Source of the DNA: Phycisphaeraceae bacterium
GTDB lineage: Bacteria; Planctomycetota; Phycisphaerae; Phycisphaerales; Phycisphaeraceae
DNA length: 62,194 nt
NCBI GenBank assembly: GCA_002686995.1
Contig: NYZC01000356.1
Span: 1-62,194, forward strand
Direction of reading: 5' to 3'
Within the stretch, counting starts at the first letter, position 1, and the number at the start of each line of letters is the position of its first letter. The notes below the pieces were generated by a model, which saw only the letters and a program-made list of their open reading frames with translations, had not been told where the DNA came from and searched no databases. The position numbers were made by a program, and so were the translations under genes. Below are positions 8,990-53,586 of this stretch, in pieces.

Positions 8990-9886
8990 TCAGGGCAATC
9001 CCGGATCAATCGTGTATGCGGGGCGGTTCACGGTAGGATCGCGCGGCGGCTCGTCGTAGGGCCCCAGCTTCATGAATTCGGCGCGGCCGTCGAGGAAGGC
9101 GACGTTCGATTTGGGGTCATAGGCGAACCAGAGCCAGTTGTCCGGCTGGTACGGCGAGGGTTGCGCATCGGGGTGCTTGCTCGGCGGATCGTGCCAGTTG
9201 TAGGGTGAGCCGTGCAGGCCGAACCCCTGCCACACCAGGTATGGCCAGGTGTACCAGATCGTGTGGTCCGCCATGGTGACCATCTTCGACGGGACGTCGA
9301 TCTCTTCCAGGCGCTTCCAGCGCAGCGTGTACTGCGCCTGAGGCGTCTGGTAGTTGCTGTTGTAGAGGTAGCTCGAGCCCCACCACCGATACACCGTGCC
9401 GTCACCGTAGCCGTTGCCGTTGCTCCATGCGGGCACCAGGAACTCCGCAAAGGCGTAGCCCGTGTCCGAGGGGCAGCGGAACCCCTTTTCGTCCACGTAA
9501 CCCTGCAGCTTTCGCCGGCCGCGAACCTCGGTCTGGTCCGAGTCGTCGGTGCCGCCGATCATCGCCGGGCCCCACATGACTTCCCAACTGGTGCCCGCCG
9601 GCGCCGGCGACTCGTCGAACCAGCCCCGCTCGGGCCGGATCGGGTAACCGGGCAGCCGCCCCTTGTTGTCGGCCGCGTAGGCGAGCACCCCGAGGGTGCA
9701 CTGACGCACGTTGCTCGTGCAATGGACGATCCGCGCGCTCTCGCGCGCTTCCTTGATCGCGGGCATGAGCAGGGCGATCAGCAGCGCGACGATGCTGATG
9801 ACGACGAGCAGCTCGATGAGCGTGAAGGCTCGGACACGGTCCGATCGACTCCACCCGGCTGGTCTATGCACGTGCGTGTAGTCCAT
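8990..9886 (-). CDS. Type II secretion/prepilin-like protein (N-terminal cleavage/methylation domain)
   Basis: [33 protein letters not shown]-terminal SNVAFLDGRAEF; start ATG at 9884-9886 (MDYTHVHRP). Confidence 0.9.
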   Translation of the reverse strand: MDYTHVHRPAGWSRSDRVRAFTLIELLVVISIVALLIALLMPAIKEARESARIVHCTSNVRQCTLGVLAYAADNKGRLPGYPIRPERGWFDESPAPAGTSWEVMWGPAMIGGTDDSDQTEVRGRRKLQGYVDEKGFRCPSDTGYAFAEFLVPAWSNGNGYGDGTVYRWWGSSYLYNSNYQTPQAQYTLRWKRLEEIDVPSKMVTMADHTIWYTWPYLVWQGFGLHGSPYNWHDPPSKHPDAQPSPYQPDNWLWFAYDPKSNVAFLDGRAEFMKLGPYDEPPRDPTVNRPAYTIDPGLP

Positions 9887-15186: not shown

Positions 15187-15597
15187 GAATGTGCTCCAGA
15201 GGGAACTGCAGGGAAGGTACTTGTCGGACAGTCCGGTTCGCCGGCACAGATCGACGCACTCCTTCCACGTCGTGACATGATACTGATCGAACTCTTCGAC
15301 GTCGGTCAAGCGGGTTACACGGCCGCGCTGCTGGCTTCACGAAGCTGGTTTCGATCTGCGACTCGGACAGCGGCGCGATCCGCTCGAGCGGCGCCAAGCC
15401 GCGATCGACATCGCAGCCTGCGGTGTTGGAGGAGCGATACCATGGGGTATCGATTTGGTTCGCGTCGATAAAAGTAAGCTGTTCTCCTCGCGATCCTGTG
15501 ATCGAGGACCACCCGTACCATAGAGGGTAGAATAGGACGGTGGTTTCAAGGCGACACAGTCGCCGGCCGCTGAAACTCGATGACGTTATGTGACTCT

Positions 15598-15681
15598 ATG
15601 AAACGTCACGTCTTAACTTGGTTCTCAATGGTATTCCTGGTTTGTTGTCTGGCCGTGACGGGCCTGTGGGTGCGAAGCTGA
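15598..15681 (+). pseudogene. Short remnant: N-terminal membrane segment MKRHVLTWFSMVFLVCCLAVTGLWVRS
   Basis: 28-codon ORF ending at TGA; hydrophobic helix ending LWVRS, a pattern I associate with N-termini of planctomycete membrane proteins. Confidence 0.35.
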
Positions 15682-15779
15682 AGTGAAATTCCTTGAGCAC
15701 GAAACCTGCGAGCTGAAACCCACGAGGGTCAGGATGTGCGACTTTCTCAGCCTAGGCGAAGAGAATGAAGAGACCTAAC

Positions 15780-16169
15780 CATCGATACCATCGATGCGGA
15801 CGACATGGCGCTCGTCTCTCACGTCGGCCAACTGTGCAGGTTCGATGCGTTGTGCCTCATGGTTGAAGTGGGATTCGACGTCAGTGCCCCGGCTGGATGG
15901 ATGCGACACCTCCGCACTGGGCATGCTGCCATGGTCACGCGGACACGGTCAGGTTTCAGCTCGACCGGGGGACGCCGACGAAGAACGTCGACGGATACTT
16001 CGGGACGCCCCTGCACACGACCCTTCACTGCCAATGGGGTTCGGACGGCGACCACGCACGGGTGCTGCGCCACTTGCTCGAGGGCGGATGCGAGGTGCCG
16101 GACGGCGCATTCCCTACGGGAAACTCGAAACTGGACGAAGTGTTCCGGGATTTCGAGGGCGCGGGATGA
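15780..16169 (+). pseudogene. Frameshifted ankyrin-repeat protein remnant
   Basis: Frame 1: MALVSHVGQLCRFDALCLMVEVGFDVSAPAGW; then frame 3: GWMDATPPHWACCHGHADTVRFQLDRGTPTKNVDGYFGTPLHTTLHCQWGSDGDHARVLRHLLEGGCEV (ankyrin TPLHWA..GH pattern). Confidence 0.65.
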
Positions 16170-16216
16170 ACCTTGCCGATGTGCACGGAAGCTGTTCGCG
16201 ACGCCTCCGCCATTGC

Positions 16217-17056
16217 TTAGCGTCGCCAGAAGCTGGAATAACGATCCACGAACCGGCGGTAGAACGCCTGCTTGTCGGGTTCGAGCGCGTTCAGGTAACC
16301 CGGCATGAGAAACCATGGCTGATCGGTGAAGTAGTCCTCGGTGGCCGCTGACTCCGTCGAGTACGAAAGCATCAGGGTGCGCCGCGCCTTGTCGACGTGA
16401 TAGCGACCGCGGTGCAGTCCGTAGGGGTGGAACGCGATGACGTCTCCCGGTTCCTGGTGGAACCGCACGGCGCCCGGCATCCGGTCGGATCGGTTGTTTG
16501 CCTGGTCGTCGCCAAGGCGGATGCGATATTCCTCCTCGGAATCCCATCGCAGATGAGTTCCCGGGACAAACTCGTTGTCTTCCGTCTCGATCAGCGCCAG
16601 CATGATCTGAACAGATTCCTGCGGCGTGGCTTCGGAGATGATGCGGCGCTGATCCGCTTCATCGGGATACACGAACTGGATATCGCGGTGCCAATGCCCG
16701 TCCTTGCCCGCCGAAACGGGGTTGTACCAGTAGGTCGTGCATCGAAAGAGCGCCCGCTCTCCCAGGATCACATTGACGAGATCCAGGATGCGCTCGTCCG
16801 CGATCGTGTCCAACAGCAACCGGAGTCCGTCCGGATCGCCTTCGTGGTAAGCCGGATGATTGAGATGCCGCATTGCGCGACCATCAGGATCGCCCGGTTC
16901 GTTCGTTTCGGGATTGTTCGCCAGGTGTTTCCTGAGTATCGCGTCGCATACCTGACGGAGTGCAGACACCTGATCCGAATCGACAAGACCGGGCACACTT
17001 ACGAACCCATGTTCGTCCCATTGGGCGCGGCAACCGAATGTCTGCGTGATGCCCAT
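16217..17056 (-). CDS. Phytanoyl-CoA dioxygenase (PhyH) family protein
   Basis: FVSVPGLVDSDQVSALRQV N-terminus; GHWHRDIQF (HxD), FHPYGLHRGRYHV distal His, then RRTLMLSYS. Confidence 0.9.
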   Translation of the reverse strand: MGITQTFGCRAQWDEHGFVSVPGLVDSDQVSALRQVCDAILRKHLANNPETNEPGDPDGRAMRHLNHPAYHEGDPDGLRLLLDTIADERILDLVNVILGERALFRCTTYWYNPVSAGKDGHWHRDIQFVYPDEADQRRIISEATPQESVQIMLALIETEDNEFVPGTHLRWDSEEEYRIRLGDDQANNRSDRMPGAVRFHQEPGDVIAFHPYGLHRGRYHVDKARRTLMLSYSTESAATEDYFTDQPWFLMPGYLNALEPDKQAFYRRFVDRYSSFWRR

Positions 17057-17098
17057 GAGCGTCCTCGCCGGCGGTGGGGCACATCGCGAACCTGCGAT

Positions 17099-17126
17099 GG
17101 GGCCACGGGTTCGGTTCCCGTGCCCC
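17099..17126. other. Hairpin GGGGCCACGGG-ttcggtt-CCCGTGCCCC
   Basis: 10-bp stem with one bulged C; homologous stem in copy B (20088..20116) has compensatory changes. Confidence 0.75.
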
Positions 17127-17162
17127 TACGATGCCGGATCGTCGCGTCGTGACATCGAGGTG

Positions 17163-17180
17163 TCAACACGATCGTGTTGA
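17163..17180. promoter_or_regulatory. Perfect 18-bp palindrome tcaacacgatcgtgttga, candidate operator
   Basis: Sequence equals its own reverse complement; lies between the divergent PhyH and PQQ-like genes; LacI/GntR-like in shape. Confidence 0.55.
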
Positions 17181-17289
17181 GTCCGTCTAGCGGGTTATGA
17201 TAGGGATTCGTTGACATGCACGACCGGCAGAATGAAATCAGCGGTGGACGCGGAACAAAACAGGCTCGGGCTCACATCGGAGACGCTGA

Positions 17290-18591
17290 ATGACTAGCGC
17301 ATTCAATCAACTCGCACTGCCTTTGACGCTGACCCTGCTCCTTCACGCGACCTCGCTCGCCGCGGACTGGCCGCAGTGGCGTGGGCCCGGTCGTGATGGT
17401 CTGTGGAACGAAACCGGCATCGTCGAGAATCTTGCAGCGCCGACGCTCGAGCCGCGCTGGACGGCGCCGATCGGCGCCGGGTACAGCGGACCCACCGTTG
17501 CCGCCGGACGGGTCTACGTGATGGATCGACTGACCCAGCCGAGCGAGGTCGAACGCATACACTGCCTGGATTGGGAGACGGGACGGTCATTGTGGACCCG
17601 TTCCTACGAATGCCGGTACCGGATCGAGTTTCCGTCGGGACCGCGAACTTCGGTCACGATTGTCGACGGACACGGTTACGCGCTCGGCGCGATCGGGCAC
17701 CTGGTCGGTTTACACGCCGAGAGCGGCAACGTGCTGTGGAGCAGAGATCTCTCGAACGAATACGAGCTCGCACTGCCCCGGTGGGGACTCGCCGCGTCTC
17801 CGCTCGTGTGCGGGGACGTGGTGATCGTGATGATCGGTGGGGCGGACGGCGCCTGCGTCGTGGGATTCGACCGGCGCAGCGGGACCGAGAAATGGCGAGC
17901 GCTCGACGATCCGGCGTCCTACGCTTCGCCGATCCTCGTTCGGCAGGCAGGGCGCGACGTCGTGATCTGCTGGACGGGGGCACACGTCGCCGGTCTGGAT
18001 CCGGAGACGGGCAGGATCTACTGGAAGCAGCCCTACCATCCGTCGAGGATGGTGATCAATATCGCCACGCCGGTCGTCCATGGCGATTCCCTTTTCCTGA
18101 CCGACTTCTTCGCCGGCTCGTTCATGTTCAGAATGCGTCAGGAGGCGCTCGACGTCGAGTCGCTATGGCATCGCAGCGGGAAGAACGAGCACAAGACCGA
18201 TGCCCTGCATTCGCTGATGTGCACGCCACAGTTGCGAGACGGTCATATCTATGGGGTGGACAGCTACGGTCAGCTTCGATGTCTCGATGCGACCACCGGC
18301 AACCGGATCTGGGAGGACACGACCGCGGTGCCCGAGGCGCGGTGGGCGAACGTTCACATGGTCCGCAACGGTGAGCGAACCTGGCTCTTCAACGAGCTGG
18401 GCGAGCTGATCGTGGCCAGGATGTCATCGCAAGGCTACCAAGAGCTCGGACGGTCGAAGCTGATTGAGCCGTCGGGTGACCGCGTCGGTGAGCGCGAGGC
18501 CGTCTGCTGGTCGCATCCGGCGTTCGCGTATCGCCACGTCTTTGCCCGCAACGACGGCACGCTGGTCTGCGCGAGCCTGGAGGCGAAGTAG
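17290..18591 (+). CDS. PQQ-binding-like beta-propeller protein (BamB-like)
   Basis: Signal peptide, WPQWRGPGRDGLWNETG start, repeats ETGRSLWTRSYE, ESGNVLWSRDL, RSGTEKWRAL, ETGRIYWKQPY, TTGNRIWEDT. Confidence 0.92.
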   Translation: MTSAFNQLALPLTLTLLLHATSLAADWPQWRGPGRDGLWNETGIVENLAAPTLEPRWTAPIGAGYSGPTVAAGRVYVMDRLTQPSEVERIHCLDWETGRSLWTRSYECRYRIEFPSGPRTSVTIVDGHGYALGAIGHLVGLHAESGNVLWSRDLSNEYELALPRWGLAASPLVCGDVVIVMIGGADGACVVGFDRRSGTEKWRALDDPASYASPILVRQAGRDVVICWTGAHVAGLDPETGRIYWKQPYHPSRMVINIATPVVHGDSLFLTDFFAGSFMFRMRQEALDVESLWHRSGKNEHKTDALHSLMCTPQLRDGHIYGVDSYGQLRCLDATTGNRIWEDTTAVPEARWANVHMVRNGERTWLFNELGELIVARMSSQGYQELGRSKLIEPSGDRVGEREAVCWSHPAFAYRHVFARNDGTLVCASLEAK

Positions 18592-18654
18592 ACGCCGCGG
18601 CGTCACGCGAATCAGCCGTACGACTGCAGGCCCCGCTTCCGCTCATCCGTTTTC

Positions 18655-19089
18655 TTATGGTTCAAACCGCTTGCGATCGTACTTGTAGATCGTCTCGCTG
18701 CGCTTGATGCGGGCCGACGTGGCATCCAGCACGTCGCGCGCCATCGAAACCTCGATGTGACTCATGCCCGGACGCACGTCGAAATAGGCCTTCGCCGTCG
18801 CGTTCGGCGGCAGCAGCCGGCCAAGGACGCCGCGCCGGATGAGATAGCGCAGTTTCCGCTCCTGGAACTTGGCCGGCAGGTCACCGTCGGGCACGATCGC
18901 TCTTCGGTCTTCGCGCACTTCCGTGATCGTCATGGTATGCATCGCCGGCGGCGTGGCGTACATCGCAAAGCCACCGAATCGCCATGGATTCATGTCCCAG
19001 GCCGCCACGACCCAGCGATGGATCAGCGGCCAGACCATGTACACCGCACAGATCAGCACGGCCAGGCGGAATTTGGTCGACGTCTTCAA
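18655..19089 (-). CDS. Small hypothetical membrane-anchored protein, coupled to 19086..19979
   Basis: TTG start in TTGA overlap with the upstream stop; KFRLAVLICAVYMVWPLIHRWVVAAW helix. Confidence 0.65.
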   Translation of the reverse strand: MKTSTKFRLAVLICAVYMVWPLIHRWVVAAWDMNPWRFGGFAMYATPPAMHTMTITEVREDRRAIVPDGDLPAKFQERKLRYLIRRGVLGRLLPPNATAKAYFDVRPGMSHIEVSMARDVLDATSARIKRSETIYKYDRKRFEP

Positions 19090-19979
19090 TGAGCACCCCA
19101 CCTGGGGACGACCCCGAATCCGGCCGCAACCAGGTACGCATAGAGCGCGACAAACAGCGGAAGAACCCGCGCGTTGACGGCGCGGGGAGCGAACAGCAGC
19201 ATCAGGCCCACGTACAGGCCACCGAAAAGCACTTCCCGGGCCGACACCTCGATGGCGACGATGAGCGCGACGGCGCCAACGAGCGTGAGCGTCCGCAACC
19301 GTGGCACCAGGAAACCGACCGCCGCCAGCATTTCCAGTGCGTAGGTCGCGTTCGATACCAGCATCAGCAGCGGTGAAGATACGTAATACGGACCGGCCCC
19401 GACCGGGGGCGGCAGACCGTAAGACCGAAGACGCTCCAGCTCTTCGCCCGGCAGCAGCCACCCGAGCGTCTCCGCGAATCGGGGCTCCATCGCGATCGCG
19501 AAGCTGAGCAGCTCGCCGGAGAAGTAATACCCGTGCATGACCTTCTGCAGGCCGGCGTAGAACATCACCGTGACGACCACGCAGCGACAGCTCTGAAGCA
19601 GCAGCCGGGACTCGTCTTCACTGCGCTCGTCGAACAGGGACCCGAGCGCAAGTATCCCCAGCTCCAGGTAATGATGATTGGCCGACAGGGGAAACTGGTT
19701 GACGTGCCGGACGATCGAGATCACGAGGACGAAGACGAACGCCGCGCGCGACCAGCGGGGCCGCCAGCCCAGAACAAGGCCGAGCGTGTAGGCCACGGCG
19801 CAGAAGAGAATGACGCTCGTCGAGTACGCAGGCTTTTCGACCGTCAGCCAGACGAACCACTCCTGCACGCACAGGTGCAGCAGGATGAGACGACGAAATG
19901 CGCGGACCATGCGGTCCCGCTCCCTTTCGTCATCGTCGACGCCGGCAATGGCGAGAAGCTGCTGATCCATGGGAGCCAT
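19086..19979 (-). CDS. HTTM-like (vitamin K-dependent gamma-carboxylase-like) multi-pass membrane protein
   Basis: Multiple TM helices, MFYAGLQKVMHGYYFSGE motif; ATG at 19977-19979 (MAPMDQQ) chosen over the 356-aa maximal ORF. Confidence 0.65.
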   Translation of the reverse strand: MAPMDQQLLAIAGVDDDERERDRMVRAFRRLILLHLCVQEWFVWLTVEKPAYSTSVILFCAVAYTLGLVLGWRPRWSRAAFVFVLVISIVRHVNQFPLSANHHYLELGILALGSLFDERSEDESRLLLQSCRCVVVTVMFYAGLQKVMHGYYFSGELLSFAIAMEPRFAETLGWLLPGEELERLRSYGLPPPVGAGPYYVSSPLLMLVSNATYALEMLAAVGFLVPRLRTLTLVGAVALIVAIEVSAREVLFGGLYVGLMLLFAPRAVNARVLPLFVALYAYLVAAGFGVVPRWGAH

Positions 19980-20011
19980 CTTCGAATCGGAGCGTCGGAC
20001 CGCAACCCAAT

Positions 20012-20186
20012 GGGCGCGGCACCCGAATATCTCCGTGATGCCCGTGAGCGTCCTCGCCGGCGGTGGGGCATATCGCAATCCTGCAATGCGGCTACGCGTT
20101 CGTAATCGCATGTCGCCACGACGCTGGATCGTCGCGTCGTGGCATGGACGTGTCAACAGGATCGTGTCGCGTCCGCGTCGCGGGTT
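20012..20186. repeat. Duplicated leader segment, copy B (upstream of the HTTM-like gene)
   Basis: See copy A; in the minus frame still encodes GITEIFGCRAHW, matching PhyH GITQTFGCRAQW, with ATG replaced by ACG. Confidence 0.9.
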
Positions 20187-20222
20187 GCCGCCCGTGGCGA
20201 CACGTCGACTGCGCGGGTCATC

Positions 20223-22235
20223 TCACTTGAAGCTCGGGATGATGATGCCGCGGAGAATGATGTTCTGACAGAACACGAACACGATCAGCGTGGGCACGGC
20301 CGCGATCACCAGCGACGCCATGACCAGGGGGACCGTGTTCTGCTGCTGGAACTCGTAGAGAAAGACCATCAGCGTCCACATCGCGGGATCCTGGCAGACC
20401 AGGAACGCATGCATGAACGCCCCGTAGGCGGCAGTGAAGGCGCCCAGCGCCATGACGGCCAGGATCGGCTTGCACAACGGCAGCGTGATGCGCCGCAGAA
20501 TCGTCAGCTCACCGGCGCCGTCGATGACGGCAGCCTCGTACAGCTCTGCCGGAAGACCGTCGAAGAACCCCTTGAGCAGGAAGATGCCGTACCCGTTGGC
20601 CAGGCTCGGAAGCACCAGGGCCCAGAACGAGTTCAACAGGCTGACCGAAAGCGACAGATCGAAACGGGCGGCCAGGCGTGGCAGCACGTAGCCGCTGAGC
20701 ACGGCGGTCACCAGCAGCGCGACCGAGGCACTTGCCAGCAGCGGCATCTTCTTGCCCATGAGCGTCTTCAGCCAGACGAATGCCGCGACGCACAGACCCA
20801 CCAGCACCATTTGGCCCAGTGGAAAGGACTTGATCAGAAGGAAGCTGGGGATCATCAGCACCTCCGCCGGGAACGCCATCGTCGCGAGCAGGAAGACCAG
20901 CAGGTGATGGGTGTGCCGCAGGCCGAAGCGCGATAGAGCATAGGCCGCCAGCGGGTTGACGGTGAGTGTCGTGCCGATCATCACGACGATGTAGATGACG
21001 GTGACCCAGAGCGCTCGGCCGTGTACGGCGATGAAGTCGATCACGGTCAGGAAGTTGTGGGTCAGGTACGTCCACCGGAGTCTCCCCGCCATGTTCCGGT
21101 ACGCGTCGTAGTGGGCCAGGGCCATCGTGGGACCGATGGTTGCGTCCTCGAACCGACTGTATGGCGTGCCGTGCGCTCGATTGAGCGCGTCGACGGTTCC
21201 GTACCGCTCGGTGAGAAATGTCCGCCACGAGGTTTGCGGGCGCACCAGGTCCAGCGCATCGATCGGCGCAGATCGCTGAACGAACCTGGCCCACGCCGCC
21301 ACGCGGGCCGGATCGCGGGGCAGGCGCTCATCGAGCGGGAGGTCCGGATCTTCGTTTATGCTTCGGAGAAATCGACGCCAGGACGGCGCCGCGGCTGCGG
21401 CGTCCACCCGCACGAAACGCAGCGGCGCATGACGACGGAAGAATGCGCGCAGGGTGCGCTCGCCCAGGCTGAACCGGGCGAGGTCGTCATATGAGACGGC
21501 GCTCAGGGTTTCGGCTGTCCACCCGGTCTGCTCGGTAAGGCGCGCTGCGCTGCCGTACCGGGCGACGAGAAAATCGTATACGGTCGCATCGATGTTGAAG
21601 ATGCCTGTTCGAACCGGTTCGCGGGACGTGATGAAACGCCGCCAGTCGCGGCCGCGGATGTCGTCGTCGGGCCAGCGGTGAAGCGGTTGCGTAGGTAATT
21701 CCAGCTCGTTCCACGTGGTCGCGTTGTCGTCGTAGGCGCGGTTCACCTCATCGATTTCACCGTACCGGCCGGCCAGCCACCGCAGATACGCAGGGCGCAG
21801 GGCCAGCGGATTCTCGCGGCCGCCGCGGACGAACAGCGGCATCTTGAATTCGTCCGGGCAGGTTTTAGCGATGAAGCGGCGCCAGTCCGCCGCGACGGTC
21901 GCGCGAACGGACGCTGACGTCGACGTGACGGCGAGAAGCTGGGACTCCTTGATGTCCGAAGGCAGGAACCACTGATCGTGCCCGAACCACGCGGCAAGAT
22001 CGCTGACGGGGGCGGCGTCCACGAGATATTTCCTGAACAGCGCCGTGTCGTTGAACCAGTACCGCGGGATGAGCCTTAGCTGATCGCCGTCCGCGCCGCT
22101 CGTCGTGGCCGTCGAAAGCATGAGCGCGAACGGATAGATCATGGTGAACGCGCCCAGCGTCAGCACCAGGTAAATCCCACCCAGCAGCAGGCGCAGCGGC
22201 ATCGAGCGTCGGCCGACCCGGCTGATCAGGGACAT
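20223..22235 (-). CDS. Carbohydrate ABC transporter permease (AraQ/MalG-like) with large extracytoplasmic insert
   Basis: EAA loop EAAVIDGAGELTILRRITLPLCKPILAVMAL; TM1 LRLLLGGIYLVLTLGAFTMIYPFALML separated from TM2 by ~330 aa of soluble sequence; ATG at 22235. Confidence 0.9.
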   Translation of the reverse strand: MSLISRVGRRSMPLRLLLGGIYLVLTLGAFTMIYPFALMLSTATTSGADGDQLRLIPRYWFNDTALFRKYLVDAAPVSDLAAWFGHDQWFLPSDIKESQLLAVTSTSASVRATVAADWRRFIAKTCPDEFKMPLFVRGGRENPLALRPAYLRWLAGRYGEIDEVNRAYDDNATTWNELELPTQPLHRWPDDDIRGRDWRRFITSREPVRTGIFNIDATVYDFLVARYGSAARLTEQTGWTAETLSAVSYDDLARFSLGERTLRAFFRRHAPLRFVRVDAAAAAPSWRRFLRSINEDPDLPLDERLPRDPARVAAWARFVQRSAPIDALDLVRPQTSWRTFLTERYGTVDALNRAHGTPYSRFEDATIGPTMALAHYDAYRNMAGRLRWTYLTHNFLTVIDFIAVHGRALWVTVIYIVVMIGTTLTVNPLAAYALSRFGLRHTHHLLVFLLATMAFPAEVLMIPSFLLIKSFPLGQMVLVGLCVAAFVWLKTLMGKKMPLLASASVALLVTAVLSGYVLPRLAARFDLSLSVSLLNSFWALVLPSLANGYGIFLLKGFFDGLPAELYEAAVIDGAGELTILRRITLPLCKPILAVMALGAFTAAYGAFMHAFLVCQDPAMWTLMVFLYEFQQQNTVPLVMASLVIAAVPTLIVFVFCQNIILRGIIIPSFK

Positions 22236-22257
22236 GGCGTGTTTCCGAATCGGCAGG

Positions 22258-25245
22258 TCATGCTCGGGAATCCCATGCTGCCGCCGCACGAAACTGCAGC
22301 CGGTTGAGGATGCGCAGCTGATGCAGGGTGAAGCCGATCAGCAGCGCCGCCATGATCCAGCCCATGGCGGTGGCGGCGCCGAAATCCAGGTACAGAAACG
22401 CGCGAAACCAGATGTCCAGGCCGATGACCATCGAACGATCCTCCGGGCCTCCGCCCGTCATCACGAAGATGTTGCCGGACTCCTTGAAGCCGGCGATGAC
22501 CGCGCCCACGAAGTTGATGATGATCAGGGCGTGCAGGTTGGGGACCGTCACGAACCAGAACTTCTTCCACACGCCGGCCCCGTCCAGGTCGGCGGCTTCG
22601 TACTGCTGATCGGGAATGCTCTTGAGCGCCGCCAGATAGATCAGGCAGCCCGGTCCCGCCCCGGCCCAGATCACGGGCAGCACCAGCCACAGCATGACCA
22701 GGCTGCGGTCGCGCAGGAAGGTCTGCCTTTCGAAAGCGAATCGGCTCCAGAACGCGTCGATCACGGCCGCGGCGCCGCCGTTGGCGCCGCGATCGATGAG
22801 GAACCAGAGCACCAGCGCCAACCCGGTCGCGCCCGCCGCGCCGCTGATCCAGCGTTCGCGACCGGTGCCCGTGGACTTGACCGCCTGGAAGATCAGCGCC
22901 GCGAAGATGGCGACCAGGCCCAGCAGCATGAGCAGCTTCACCGCAACGGCCACGGGAAGCGGCCAGGCGTTGAACGAGAGAATCAGCCGATTGAGCACGC
23001 CCTTGTCGGTCGGGTCGTAGAAGAGCTGCTTCCACAGAAAGAGCGTGACGAGGCCGGTCGTCACGGCGGGCAGGTAGTAGATCACGCGGTACACGATCTT
23101 CCCGCGCGGGATCTCGCTGAGCAGCACGGCGAGCACGATGGGGACGATGAATCCGATCCCGACGAGCATCAGGACGTATTCGAACGTCTGCACGAGGTGT
23201 AACCAGAACGGCCTCGAGGCGACCACCTCGATGAAGTTGCGCAGGCCGACGAATCGGGAGTCGCCCAGGAGCCGGTAATCCTGGAATGCCATGATCATGC
23301 CGCGGGCCAGCGGGTAGTAGTTCCATATCAGAACCGTGACCACCGCCGGCAGCAGCATCGCCCACGCGTACGCGGCGCGACGCGGCCGGCGCCCCGCGGC
23401 GCCGATCCGCTCGCCACCGCGGGCGGTCGATCTCATGGCCAACTGAACGACGCGCACGGCGGCCATCATCAGCCCGGCCGCCAGGCCGGCGAAGATCAGC
23501 CAGCCGATGCGCGAGCGCCGGCGCACCTGCTCGTCGGACATCCGCCCGAGGATCCGCGCGTTGACCCGGTCCACGACCTCGTTCATGACCTGCTGCAGGT
23601 CGAGTCGATAACGGCCGGTGCGCGGATCGGGGCGATCGTTGATGATCCTTTCGATCAGAAGGGGCAACTCGCGCGTCTGGACGGTCGTAAAGCCCTCGCA
23701 GAACGGTTCGACGCGCGCCCACCTGTCAAGGTCTTCCCACAGCCGTTGCCGCATCGGCGGGATGCGGTCGAGCAGATCGCCGTAACCGGCGGCTTTCAGG
23801 GGGCCGGGTCTCACGTAAGGCGCCAGACCATGGGCGACGAACGTTTCGACGCGGATCCTCTGTGCTTCGGGACCCGTGACGAATTGAATGTAGGTCCAGG
23901 CCGCGCGGCGGATCCGCTCGACGCTGCGGCGACCCGGCTCGCGGCCGGGCGTGATCGCGCGGTTGATCGACAGGTACTCGCCGGCGATGAAGGCGGCCGG
24001 ATTCGCGCCCGATCTCGAGGGAAACGGTACCGCCATCCGCAGCTTCGGCTCGGAGATGTCGGCCTCGCCGAAGACGTTGATCTGCATGCCGTACCGGGCG
24101 CGATGGATCTTGCGGCCTTCGTCCTGCCGGGTGACGGCGTCCACGACACCGCGGTAGACGCGCCGGGCGACTTCGGGGTCGCCGAGGTCGAATTCGTCAC
24201 CGTTGACGGGATCCACGGCCACGCCCGTGGCGAGCATCTCCGGCGTGATGTCAAACTCGTGGTCGCCGTTGCGCAACCAGGGCTGGTGGATCATGCGCCG
24301 GTAGAACCGCATCGCCTCGATGGCTTCGGGGCTGTCGGTGCGAAGCCGCCACACCAGGTCGTCCACCGAGCGATCGGGCGGTATCGACCGGGCGTCCAGC
24401 ACGGCTTGCCGCTTCTCCCGTCGCTCGTCGTAGGCCGACTGGTTGCCGAGCCGGACGTGGAAAGCGGCGTAGTCCACGGGCAGCGCCGGGATAGGAACAT
24501 CGCGTCCGTCGGGCCCCACGTAACAGGCCTCCACGACTTCGCCGCCGGCCGACCAGACATGCTGCATGAAGTGCGAGCCGGCCCGGGTGAGGCCGGTCAG
24601 CATCTTGAACCCGTATTGCTGTGGCTCGCCGGGCTCGCCGTCGGGCTCCCTGGCCGGATCGCGCGTGAGCCTGCGCGCGAACTCGTACAGCTCGTCCCAG
24701 TTCCTGGGCACACGATCCCCCAGCCCGGCCCGCGCGAACAGATCGCGCCGGCACGCCAGGGCGTGCGAGTAGTACAGGTAGGGCACGGCGATGATGCGGC
24801 CGCGGTCGTGGCACAGCTGCCACACCTTGTCCGGCGCGTTGATGCCGGCGTAGTCCCGCCCGTGATCGGCCGCGTAGCCTGCCAGAAACTGATTGAGGGG
24901 AAGGAGAAGGTCCTGGGCGCGGTAGTCGCCGACCTTGCGTCCCTGGAGGTAGAGCACATCGGGTGCCACGCCGCCGGCCACCGCCATCAGCTCGTTGCCC
25001 TCGGCGGCGGGCCCTTCGATCTCGAGCGGCACGAGGGCCTTGACGCGGATCTCGGGATGACGCCGGCAGAAGAGATCGAAGACCTTCCGGCGCGCCATGA
25101 TGGCGGGATGGGACGTGCCCCGGGGAGGGATGTTCCAGAGGTGCAGCGTGACCGGTTCAGCGTCGGCGCCGCAGTTCGTCGCGCAGATCCAGGTTACGGC
25201 CAGGAAGACCGTCGCCAGCGACATTCGACCGGGAATGAGGGTCAA
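22258..25245 (-). CDS. Fused extracellular solute-binding protein - MalF-like ABC permease
   Basis: 995-aa continuous ORF: signal segment, SBP (VTLHLWNIPPRGTSHPAIMARRKVFDLFCRRHPEIRV..., LFARAGLGDRVPRNWDELYEFARRLT), TM IGWLIFAGLAAGLMMAAV, then permease with EAADLDGAGVWKKFWFVTVPNL. Confidence 0.92.
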   Translation of the reverse strand: MTLIPGRMSLATVFLAVTWICATNCGADAEPVTLHLWNIPPRGTSHPAIMARRKVFDLFCRRHPEIRVKALVPLEIEGPAAEGNELMAVAGGVAPDVLYLQGRKVGDYRAQDLLLPLNQFLAGYAADHGRDYAGINAPDKVWQLCHDRGRIIAVPYLYYSHALACRRDLFARAGLGDRVPRNWDELYEFARRLTRDPAREPDGEPGEPQQYGFKMLTGLTRAGSHFMQHVWSAGGEVVEACYVGPDGRDVPIPALPVDYAAFHVRLGNQSAYDERREKRQAVLDARSIPPDRSVDDLVWRLRTDSPEAIEAMRFYRRMIHQPWLRNGDHEFDITPEMLATGVAVDPVNGDEFDLGDPEVARRVYRGVVDAVTRQDEGRKIHRARYGMQINVFGEADISEPKLRMAVPFPSRSGANPAAFIAGEYLSINRAITPGREPGRRSVERIRRAAWTYIQFVTGPEAQRIRVETFVAHGLAPYVRPGPLKAAGYGDLLDRIPPMRQRLWEDLDRWARVEPFCEGFTTVQTRELPLLIERIINDRPDPRTGRYRLDLQQVMNEVVDRVNARILGRMSDEQVRRRSRIGWLIFAGLAAGLMMAAVRVVQLAMRSTARGGERIGAAGRRPRRAAYAWAMLLPAVVTVLIWNYYPLARGMIMAFQDYRLLGDSRFVGLRNFIEVVASRPFWLHLVQTFEYVLMLVGIGFIVPIVLAVLLSEIPRGKIVYRVIYYLPAVTTGLVTLFLWKQLFYDPTDKGVLNRLILSFNAWPLPVAVAVKLLMLLGLVAIFAALIFQAVKSTGTGRERWISGAAGATGLALVLWFLIDRGANGGAAAVIDAFWSRFAFERQTFLRDRSLVMLWLVLPVIWAGAGPGCLIYLAALKSIPDQQYEAADLDGAGVWKKFWFVTVPNLHALIIINFVGAVIAGFKESGNIFVMTGGGPEDRSMVIGLDIWFRAFLYLDFGAATAMGWIMAALLIGFTLHQLRILNRLQFRAAAAWDSRA

Positions 25246-25288: not shown

Positions 25289-26011
25289 CTACCTGGTCAG
25301 TGCCGGAATGATCAGAGCGGGATTGCCCGGGGCCAGCGCGTACTCGGTGAACTCGATATGGCCGTCCAGAAACATGGCGTTGAGACCGCCCTGGTGACGG
25401 TCGCCCCCGTTCTCGACGGCCGCGATCGTGCCGCCGTCGGTGAGGTACTCGAGGACGTGGGGCATGTCGAACCAGATATGGCCTCTCGTGTCCATCATGT
25501 AGATGACGGCCATGGGGTTGGCGATGTCGATCAGCCGATTGAGCGGCACGTTGCCGTGTCGGTAAACCGCGATCTCCGCGTTGAGGCCGTAGTTCGGCCA
25601 CAGCTTGCTGTCGTAGACGTCCGGATCCAGCCATGGCCGGGACTCGGCCGGGCAGTGGGTCACCTTCGCGTAGAGGCTGCCGCGCGATTCAGAGGGGTTT
25701 CCGGAGTTGGACTCCACGATCGAGCGCCACTCCTTGTTGTCGAGCATCCAGCCGTAAAAGCTGCTGTGCCAGGGCGCTTCCTCGTACGCCGCGACCAGGT
25801 AACCGTCGTTCTCGCTCACGTAGACCTGCACCGCCAGCGCCATCTGCTTCATCTGGCTCGCGCACAGCGTAGTCAGGGCGAGTGACTTCGCCCGCTTGAC
25901 GGCCGGCAGGATCAGCGCGATCAGCAGCGCCACGATGGAGATGACGACGAGAAGCTCAATGAGCGTGAACGCCTGCCCCCACGGTTGGCGACGAGTGATG
26001 TTGCGGATCAT
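25289..26011 (-). CDS. Pseudopilin-like protein with H-X9-DG tail
   Basis: [41 protein letters not shown]. Confidence 0.92.
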
Positions 26012-27396: not shown

Positions 27397-27420
27397 GGGA
27401 AGAGCTACGAGAAGCCACAG

Positions 27421-27515
27421 CGCGGGCTGTGCCGGCAACCCATCGTGACGCCGGTCTGGACAATGCGACACCCCCCCAACCCCCCCTTACAAAGGGGGGG
27501 CTTCAATGCGCCGCT
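27421..27515. repeat. Dispersed intergenic repeat, copy 2
   Basis: cgcgggctgtgccggcaacccatcgtgacgccggtctggacaatgcgacacccccccaacccccccttacaaagggggggcttcaatgcgccgctc; aligns to 39301..39403. Confidence 0.85.
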
Positions 27516-27598
27516 CCCGTTCCGGGGCTAGGGGGCACAACCTTGCAAGGACAACAGGAATTCGACGGTTTGTAGCACAAACCCTGTTCGAACGGCAC

Positions 27599-39250: not shown

Positions 39251-39300
39251 GCGAGGGTGTAAAGCCCTGGCCGCGGCGGGAATGGCCGCGAAGAGTCGCA

Positions 39301-39403
39301 GCGCGGGCTGAGGCCGGCAATCCATCTTTGCGCCGGGTCTGGACAATGCGATACCCCCTCCGAACCCCCCCCCTTACAAAGGGGGGGCTTTAATGCGCCG
39401 CTC
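39301..39403. repeat. Dispersed intergenic repeat, copy 3
   Basis: gcgcgggctgaggccggcaatccatctttgcgccgggtctggacaatgcgataccccctccgaacccccccccttacaaagggggggctttaatgcgccgctc. Confidence 0.85.
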
Positions 39404-40138
39404 CTCGCGTTGCGCCCGCGCGGCCAGGTATCGTCGTTTGATCTCGTCGCCGTCCAGCACGCGCTTCCACAGGCGCAGTTCGTCGATGATCGCATCGCAG
39501 GGATCCTTGCCGTCCCGACTGCCGATCCACAGCGTGTCGGGCGCCTTCATGCCGCCTTTCGACCGAGGATCGAAACCCGGCTCTTCCTGGACGAGCACAC
39601 CGTCGATGTATCCGTTGACGTGATAGAGCACGGGTGTCACTTCGTTGCGCAGCAGCTTGAGGCGCCTGCCATCCCCCCACGTCAGGGCCAGGTGGTGCCA
39701 TCGACCCGCCTTCCAGGAGACGTTCTGACCTCGTTTCGTCGTCGAACCGATCGCACCCATGCGAAGAATCCGGCCGTGCAGCACCTGCAGCGGATACGAA
39801 TTGGCAAACGGCGCTCCCGCGTGGATGAAAGCGCGCGAGCCGGCATCGGTCCCGGAGCCATTGGGGCGCACCCACAGCTCCAACGTGCCTTCATGTATCG
39901 GGAAGCGATCGCCGATGGCGTAGCGAATGCCGTGGCCGTGGTTCAGGGCCGTGAATCCCCGTCCGACGAAGCCGCGCACGAAGTGCCCGCCTTTAACCGT
40001 GGCGCCGCTCCCGACGAGAAGCGTTCGATCTTCGAACGGTTCGTGAAGCACGAGGTCTCCGTGGTCGGGCGCTGCTTCACCGAGCGTCGCCGAAGCCATA
40101 GCACCGAGCATGATCACGCCGACGCAATGCCGCATCAT
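39374..40138 (-). CDS. Secreted LamG/concanavalin-like protein
   Basis: MMRHCVGVIMLGAMASATLG signal; GTLELWVRPNGS, GRWHHLALTWGDGRRLKLLRN, DAIIDELRLWKRVLDGDEIKRRY; stop codon lies in the repeat. Confidence 0.85.
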   Translation of the reverse strand: MMRHCVGVIMLGAMASATLGEAAPDHGDLVLHEPFEDRTLLVGSGATVKGGHFVRGFVGRGFTALNHGHGIRYAIGDRFPIHEGTLELWVRPNGSGTDAGSRAFIHAGAPFANSYPLQVLHGRILRMGAIGSTTKRGQNVSWKAGRWHHLALTWGDGRRLKLLRNEVTPVLYHVNGYIDGVLVQEEPGFDPRSKGGMKAPDTLWIGSRDGKDPCDAIIDELRLWKRVLDGDEIKRRYLAARAQREERRIKAPPL

Positions 40139-52854: not shown

Positions 52855-53586
52855 ATGCACGACGCTTCGGCCAGGCCATTTCGACCCTGCTCCGGCGATC
52901 GGGGCTTCACACTGATCGAACTGCTCGTCGTGATCTCGATCATCGCGCTGCTGATCGCGCTGCTCCTGCCCGCGATACGCGGGGCGAAGGATATCGCGAG
53001 ACAGGTCACGTGCCTCAGCAACGAGAGGCAGATGGGGCAGGTCCTGCAGGCGTACGTCGGCGAGGCGGACGGCTTCTTTCCTCTGGTTGAGGATAACAAC
53101 GGCCCAATCCCCGGCGCCAACAGTGACGTCGAAGATCCCTGGAGCGTCATCGGGCTGTCCCTGCCGCTGGTGAACGACAACATCGAGATGTATCAATGTC
53201 CGACGGCGCTGACGTTCGGCATCCCCACCGAATACCTGGGGCGCAAGGTGACCCCCTACATGCACAACGGCGTGCTGATGCACGTCTTCCCCACGCTGAT
53301 GTCATCCGTGCCCAATCTTCCCGCGACGGTCCTGGTGCACGAGTACGGACACATGACGGTCCGGTCATACCTTCGACCCTGGTACACCAACGGTGAGTAC
53401 CGGCTCGATTACGAAACCTGGGTGCGCGGCTTTTCCTATCACAGTGGTGGCTCGAACTTCCTGTTCGGGGACGGACATGCCGAGCTGGTCCACTTCGATG
53501 ACGTGCGGACGGGCATGTGGGGGCTCACGCCCGCGGACGAGACGCTGCCGGAGAGCATCGGGCAGGGGTACGACCGATCATTTTGA
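52855..53586 (+). CDS. Pseudopilin-like protein with H-X9-DG tail
   Basis: [42 protein letters not shown]. Confidence 0.92.

Follow-up and report, generated by a model that had tools for sequence, protein, structure and literature searches.

We report here that two direct copies of a segment of about 180 nt lie some 3 kb apart in a 62,194-nt stretch of a Phycisphaeraceae genome (the window; contig NYZC01000356.1), one opening a gene for a PhyH-family dioxygenase and the other standing, without its start codon, before a membrane-protein gene. The pair probably arose long ago, when the start of the PhyH gene, itself built in part from the remains of a gene like the neighbouring gene Y, was duplicated locally, and the second copy would have no function; this reading is held with moderate confidence.

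The PhyH locus and the two repeat copies

The minus-strand order is ABC permease gene, copy B, gene X, gene Y, copy A and PhyH gene; a plus-strand gene for a PQQ-type protein lies between the copies, after Y, and is divergent from PhyH. The coordinates are:

16217–17056, minus strand: PhyH-family dioxygenase gene (Pfam PhyH 2.1e-17, residues 13–219)
17017–17196, minus strand: repeat copy A, covering the first 13 PhyH codons and the 140 nt before them
17056–17081 (20045–20070 in copy B), minus strand: 26-nt block identical in A and B, containing a GAGG that resembles a ribosome-binding site and the first base of the ATG
17164–17179, minus strand: 16-nt palindrome CAACACGATCGTGTTG, perfect in A and disrupted in B
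17290–18591, plus strand: gene for a PQQ-type beta-propeller protein (Pfam PQQ_2 1.4e-34)
18655–19089, minus strand: gene Y, partner of X, with the conserved motif NPWRFGGFAMYATP
18919–19025, minus strand: third, older relative of the repeat within the coding sequence of Y, with about 63% identity where the two can be aligned
19086–19979, minus strand: gene X, polytopic membrane protein (from the list of open reading frames; probable start ATG at 19979 or 19970)
20006–20186, minus strand: repeat copy B, lying after the ABC permease gene and before gene X, with its start codon lost
20223–22289, minus strand: permease gene of an ABC transporter; its end lies 37 nt before copy B

Smith-Waterman alignment of A and B, which lie on the same strand, gave 150 identical columns out of 181 with one 1-nt gap, the copies having drifted to 83% identity. 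Likeness breaks off sharply at both ends, and the flanking DNA scores as shuffles do in local alignment. The pair had an E-value of 6e-47 in a blastn search of its own genome, with the next match at 0.015, and the likeness is far beyond chance. An earlier note on this DNA had described a same-orientation repeat of about 175 bp with a single 1-nt indel; this repeat is real, and its coordinates were right within 6 nt. The central part of the repeat is 70% identical and the outer parts are better kept (scan p 0.04 for differences clustered mid-repeat), a pattern that may reflect a degree of selection on the ends.

The PhyH gene starts inside copy A (ATG at 17054–17056, with GAGG six bases before it), and its PhyH domain starts at residue 13, where the repeat ends. 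Copy B carries ACG at the corresponding position (20043–20045) and still encodes the first PhyH codons (GITQTFGCRAQW / GITEIFGCRAHW), which confirms both of these earlier observations. Y and A both have ATG, which marks the ATG as ancestral and the ACG of B as derived. X has ATGs of its own about 65–75 nt downstream of this ACG, and its frame remains open upstream into copy B, as far as 20156.

The repeat closes with codons for R-A-Q-W in copy A and for R-A-H-W in copy B. In most PhyH homologues of the phylum the corresponding residues are R/K-x-Q-W/Y, a few positions after the start of the protein, and most homologues align only from residue 7–13 onward. These final codons probably belong to PhyH proper, a reading based on two or three residues, and B, which has them too, probably arose as a truncated copy of this gene start. 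The duplication of the PhyH 5' end proposed earlier finds some support, and copying from PhyH to the side of X is favoured, as the repeat ends in PhyH-type codons.

Gene X matched no Pfam or NCBIfam family at cut-off (weak MauE/DoxX likeness only), which leaves its previous label 'HTTM-like' without support from either database; the structure model of X was too poor for searching (pLDDT 45). Two distant genomes of the phylum carry distant relatives of X and Y, as adjacent genes in L164 and as a fusion in L165, a single frame of 422 aa (L165:625-1890); in the window they are separate overlapping genes. The fusion points to a joint function of the X/Y family, which has no Pfam match.

X, Y and the PQQ and ABC genes were not nearby at any of 15 loci with PhyH homologues, and nothing in the composition marked the X-Y-PQQ block as foreign. 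Searches for remnants of X or Y in 15310–16216 and upstream of A gave chance-level matches only. The former region, downstream of PhyH, consists of 900 bp of broken frames resembling gene remains, with TPLHTTLHCQWG...LLEGGC on the plus strand, ankyrin-like by eye. On the other side of the locus, there is an unusual ABC transporter: the gene at 22258–25245 encodes a fusion of solute-binding protein and permease (995 aa), and the second permease (20223–22289) has a long insert resembling part of a GH42 glycosidase.

Regulatory signals in the repeat

A further proposal of the earlier note was that a promoter had been copied to re-wire the membrane-protein gene. In its full form, a working promoter and leader would have been copied from PhyH to X and kept by selection for joint expression. 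Copy B is correctly placed and stranded before X for this role, yet X lies behind the same-strand ABC gene and could be read from there, the ATG is lost in B, and X needs no start codon from it. The identical 26-nt block with its GAGG is present as described and speaks for a conserved leader, but it is not significant, since runs as long arose in 15% of the cases when the 31 differences were scattered at random (permutation p = 0.15). The two copies also agree fully in TTGACA and in a stretch of 16 nt further downstream, and the clustering of differences mid-repeat (p 0.04) fits the same picture, whereas no sigma-70-like promoter passed a consensus scan of 16000–20500. Copy B does not preserve the palindrome of A, and no common RNA fold emerged, the minimum-energy folds of A and B being different and that of A no better than those of shuffles. 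Against this evidence the proposal does not hold up well: a copied promoter is unlikely, and regulation common to PhyH and X is possible but unsupported.

An Rfam scan yielded chance-level matches only, none of them on the repeat, and a tRNA scan revealed no RNA family. The palindrome (AACACGATCGTGTT) was also considered as a regulon operator and rejected, as its seven other near matches in the genome all lie inside genes.

Gene Y as a third relative and the copy number of the repeat

A profile built from A and B matched the 5' third of Y on the same strand, with E-values (to be taken as rough) of 2.8e-6 within the window, 2.1e-4 in 1.49 Mb (nhmmer) and 3.3e-4 in the whole genome, where it was the best non-self match in 7.8 Mb. 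The match was significant and reciprocal, lay partly in the frame of Y with frameshifts, and was weaker for B alone. In the reciprocal search, the 5' part of Y found B first and A fourth among the non-self matches (same strand, 1.49 Mb). A frameshift-tolerant alignment placed 'VVAAWDMNPWRFGGFAMYATPPAMHTMTIT' of Y against 'IVGAREPNPWPHRRFAM-APPPARTLMGIT' of A. The Y protein scored 64 against A, a value reached by 0 of 20,000 random 181-nt genome pieces (Gumbel p 1.2e-4), and 39 against B (p 0.06). The first 55 nt of the repeat had no clear alignment with Y.

The residues of Y that align with A are the motif conserved in the distant relatives of Y (SSWKFAGWGMYATP, SPWKLAGFGMYSVP), which suggests that Y is the gene and that A and B are the relics. 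Gaps relative to Y are common to A and B, including a frameshifting one of 2 nt, so that divergence or decay would predate the split of the two copies; changes polarised by Y number 10 on A and 9 on B. As these gaps shift the frame, the 'leader' probably consists for the most part of a Y-like gene fragment that has decayed. Homology of A and B with Y is well supported by these comparisons. The earlier interpretation stands in part; it missed that most of the segment is homologous to the intervening gene.

If the likeness to Y were due to chance, A and B would simply be the PhyH upstream region in duplicate, unlinked to Y. The modest E-values (1e-4 to 1e-3 genome-wide) and the weak match of B alone would allow this, but the best non-self match of the genome lies within 2 kb, on the same strand and reciprocally, and the match in A is in frame with the conserved Y motif; we consider chance decidedly unlikely. 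A scenario in which the decayed fragment of a membrane-protein gene became promoter, ribosome-binding site and N-terminus of PhyH, and this cassette was then copied before X, from whose partner family it came, bringing both genes under one control, is highly improbable.

The repeat occurs in only two places in its own genome, both in the window (blastn and profile searches of 7.8 Mb; the assembly has 446 contigs and is 88% complete). Copies are absent from 60 related genomes, among which fragments of 36 nt at most were found and which include no genome of the same genus, so that the locus before duplication lies outside this comparison. Blast searches of phages and plasmids gave no match, and terminal inverted repeats or a target-site duplication were not visible at the four ends of A and B. 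With two copies in its own genome and none in the 60 relatives, the repeat is neither a dispersed repeat nor part of a mobile family; the search for more copies in random contexts, which covered the genome and its relatives, was negative. The small mobile element that the earlier note had considered, here a MITE/REP-like or interspersed element with two copies left in a repeat-rich genome, is very improbable, for although 1.49 Mb of this genome contain many dispersed repeat families of 100–180 nt, several of them palindromic, A and B fit none of these, lack the termini of such elements and exist in exactly two copies 3 kb apart.

A diversity-generating retroelement, with A and B as template and variable repeat, was likewise rejected: the substitutions are of all kinds, G/C changes being the most frequent, and are not confined to template adenines. 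The repeat survey, carried out on 1.49 Mb of the genome, gave only 14 direct pairs of similar size and divergence at distances of 0.5–10 kb, two of which, according to a crude filter, are for the most part outside coding-like frames; a local pair such as A and B is accordingly uncommon, not singular.

The same survey revealed other repeats. The largest linked cluster of dispersed 100–180-nt intergenic repeats occupies 124 places in 1.49 Mb; several of these families are nearly perfect palindromes (MITE/REP-like), and some contigs end in such repeats (examples in this genome are L092:9240-9770, L055:10119-10261, L059:2963-3083 and L067:87-245). One dispersed family with a C-run/G-run hairpin (CCCCCCTTACAAAGGGGGG) has two copies in the window (27397–27517 and 39278–39404, 83% identity) and four places in 1.49 Mb. 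The strong short repeats at 9730–9832, 25886–25975 and 52899–53013 are due to conserved DNA of N-terminal methylation/DUF1559 pseudopilin-like genes.

Proposed history and its meaning

The preferred reading, a local duplication of the PhyH 5' end, would comprise three steps. Judging from homology, a fragment of a Y-like gene, the partner of X, decayed just upstream of PhyH, and an in-frame Met codon of this relic, together with the preceding GAGG, may have been recruited as the PhyH start, giving the first residues MGITQT. The composite segment ending in R-A-Q-W was then duplicated, so that its copies bracket X, Y and the PQQ gene; the repeat and its two-copy status are observed, and the direction of copying is what we infer. 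Two histories fit the data: a copy may have been pasted before X, or an incoming X-Y-PQQ block may have entered a former junction of ABC gene, leader and PhyH, with duplication of the site. Finally, A still opens PhyH, and B, in which loss of the ATG is observed, would be an untranslated and presumably functionless relic upstream of X. After the duplication, both copies would have changed about equally.

Local segmental duplication that leaves a truncated gene-start relic is an ordinary rearrangement of bacterial genomes. A and B resemble it as two nearby direct copies with sharp ends and 83% identity, one of them broken, and differ from it in that the duplicated piece itself appears to include remains of a neighbouring gene and still provides PhyH with its start codon. 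In regulatory switching, horizontal or intragenomic, intergenic regions are swapped between genes. The present case is similar in that one upstream region stands before two different genes; unlike in such switching, B has lost its start codon, and the pair is known here from the sequence of one genome, any change in expression being hypothetical. In this context, the term 'horizontal regulatory transfer' has been used (PMC5890482). Random sequences evolve into promoters in E. coli (PMC5906472), and DNA from a gene relic may likewise serve as the putative leader of PhyH.

The pair would thus represent a small, readable case of a gene whose start codon and leader stem from what was left of another. 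It also illustrates that a duplicated 5' end can mimic a regulatory cassette though it is more simply a relic. Such a case is chiefly useful for the annotation of planctomycete-type genomes and for studies of the origin of leaders.
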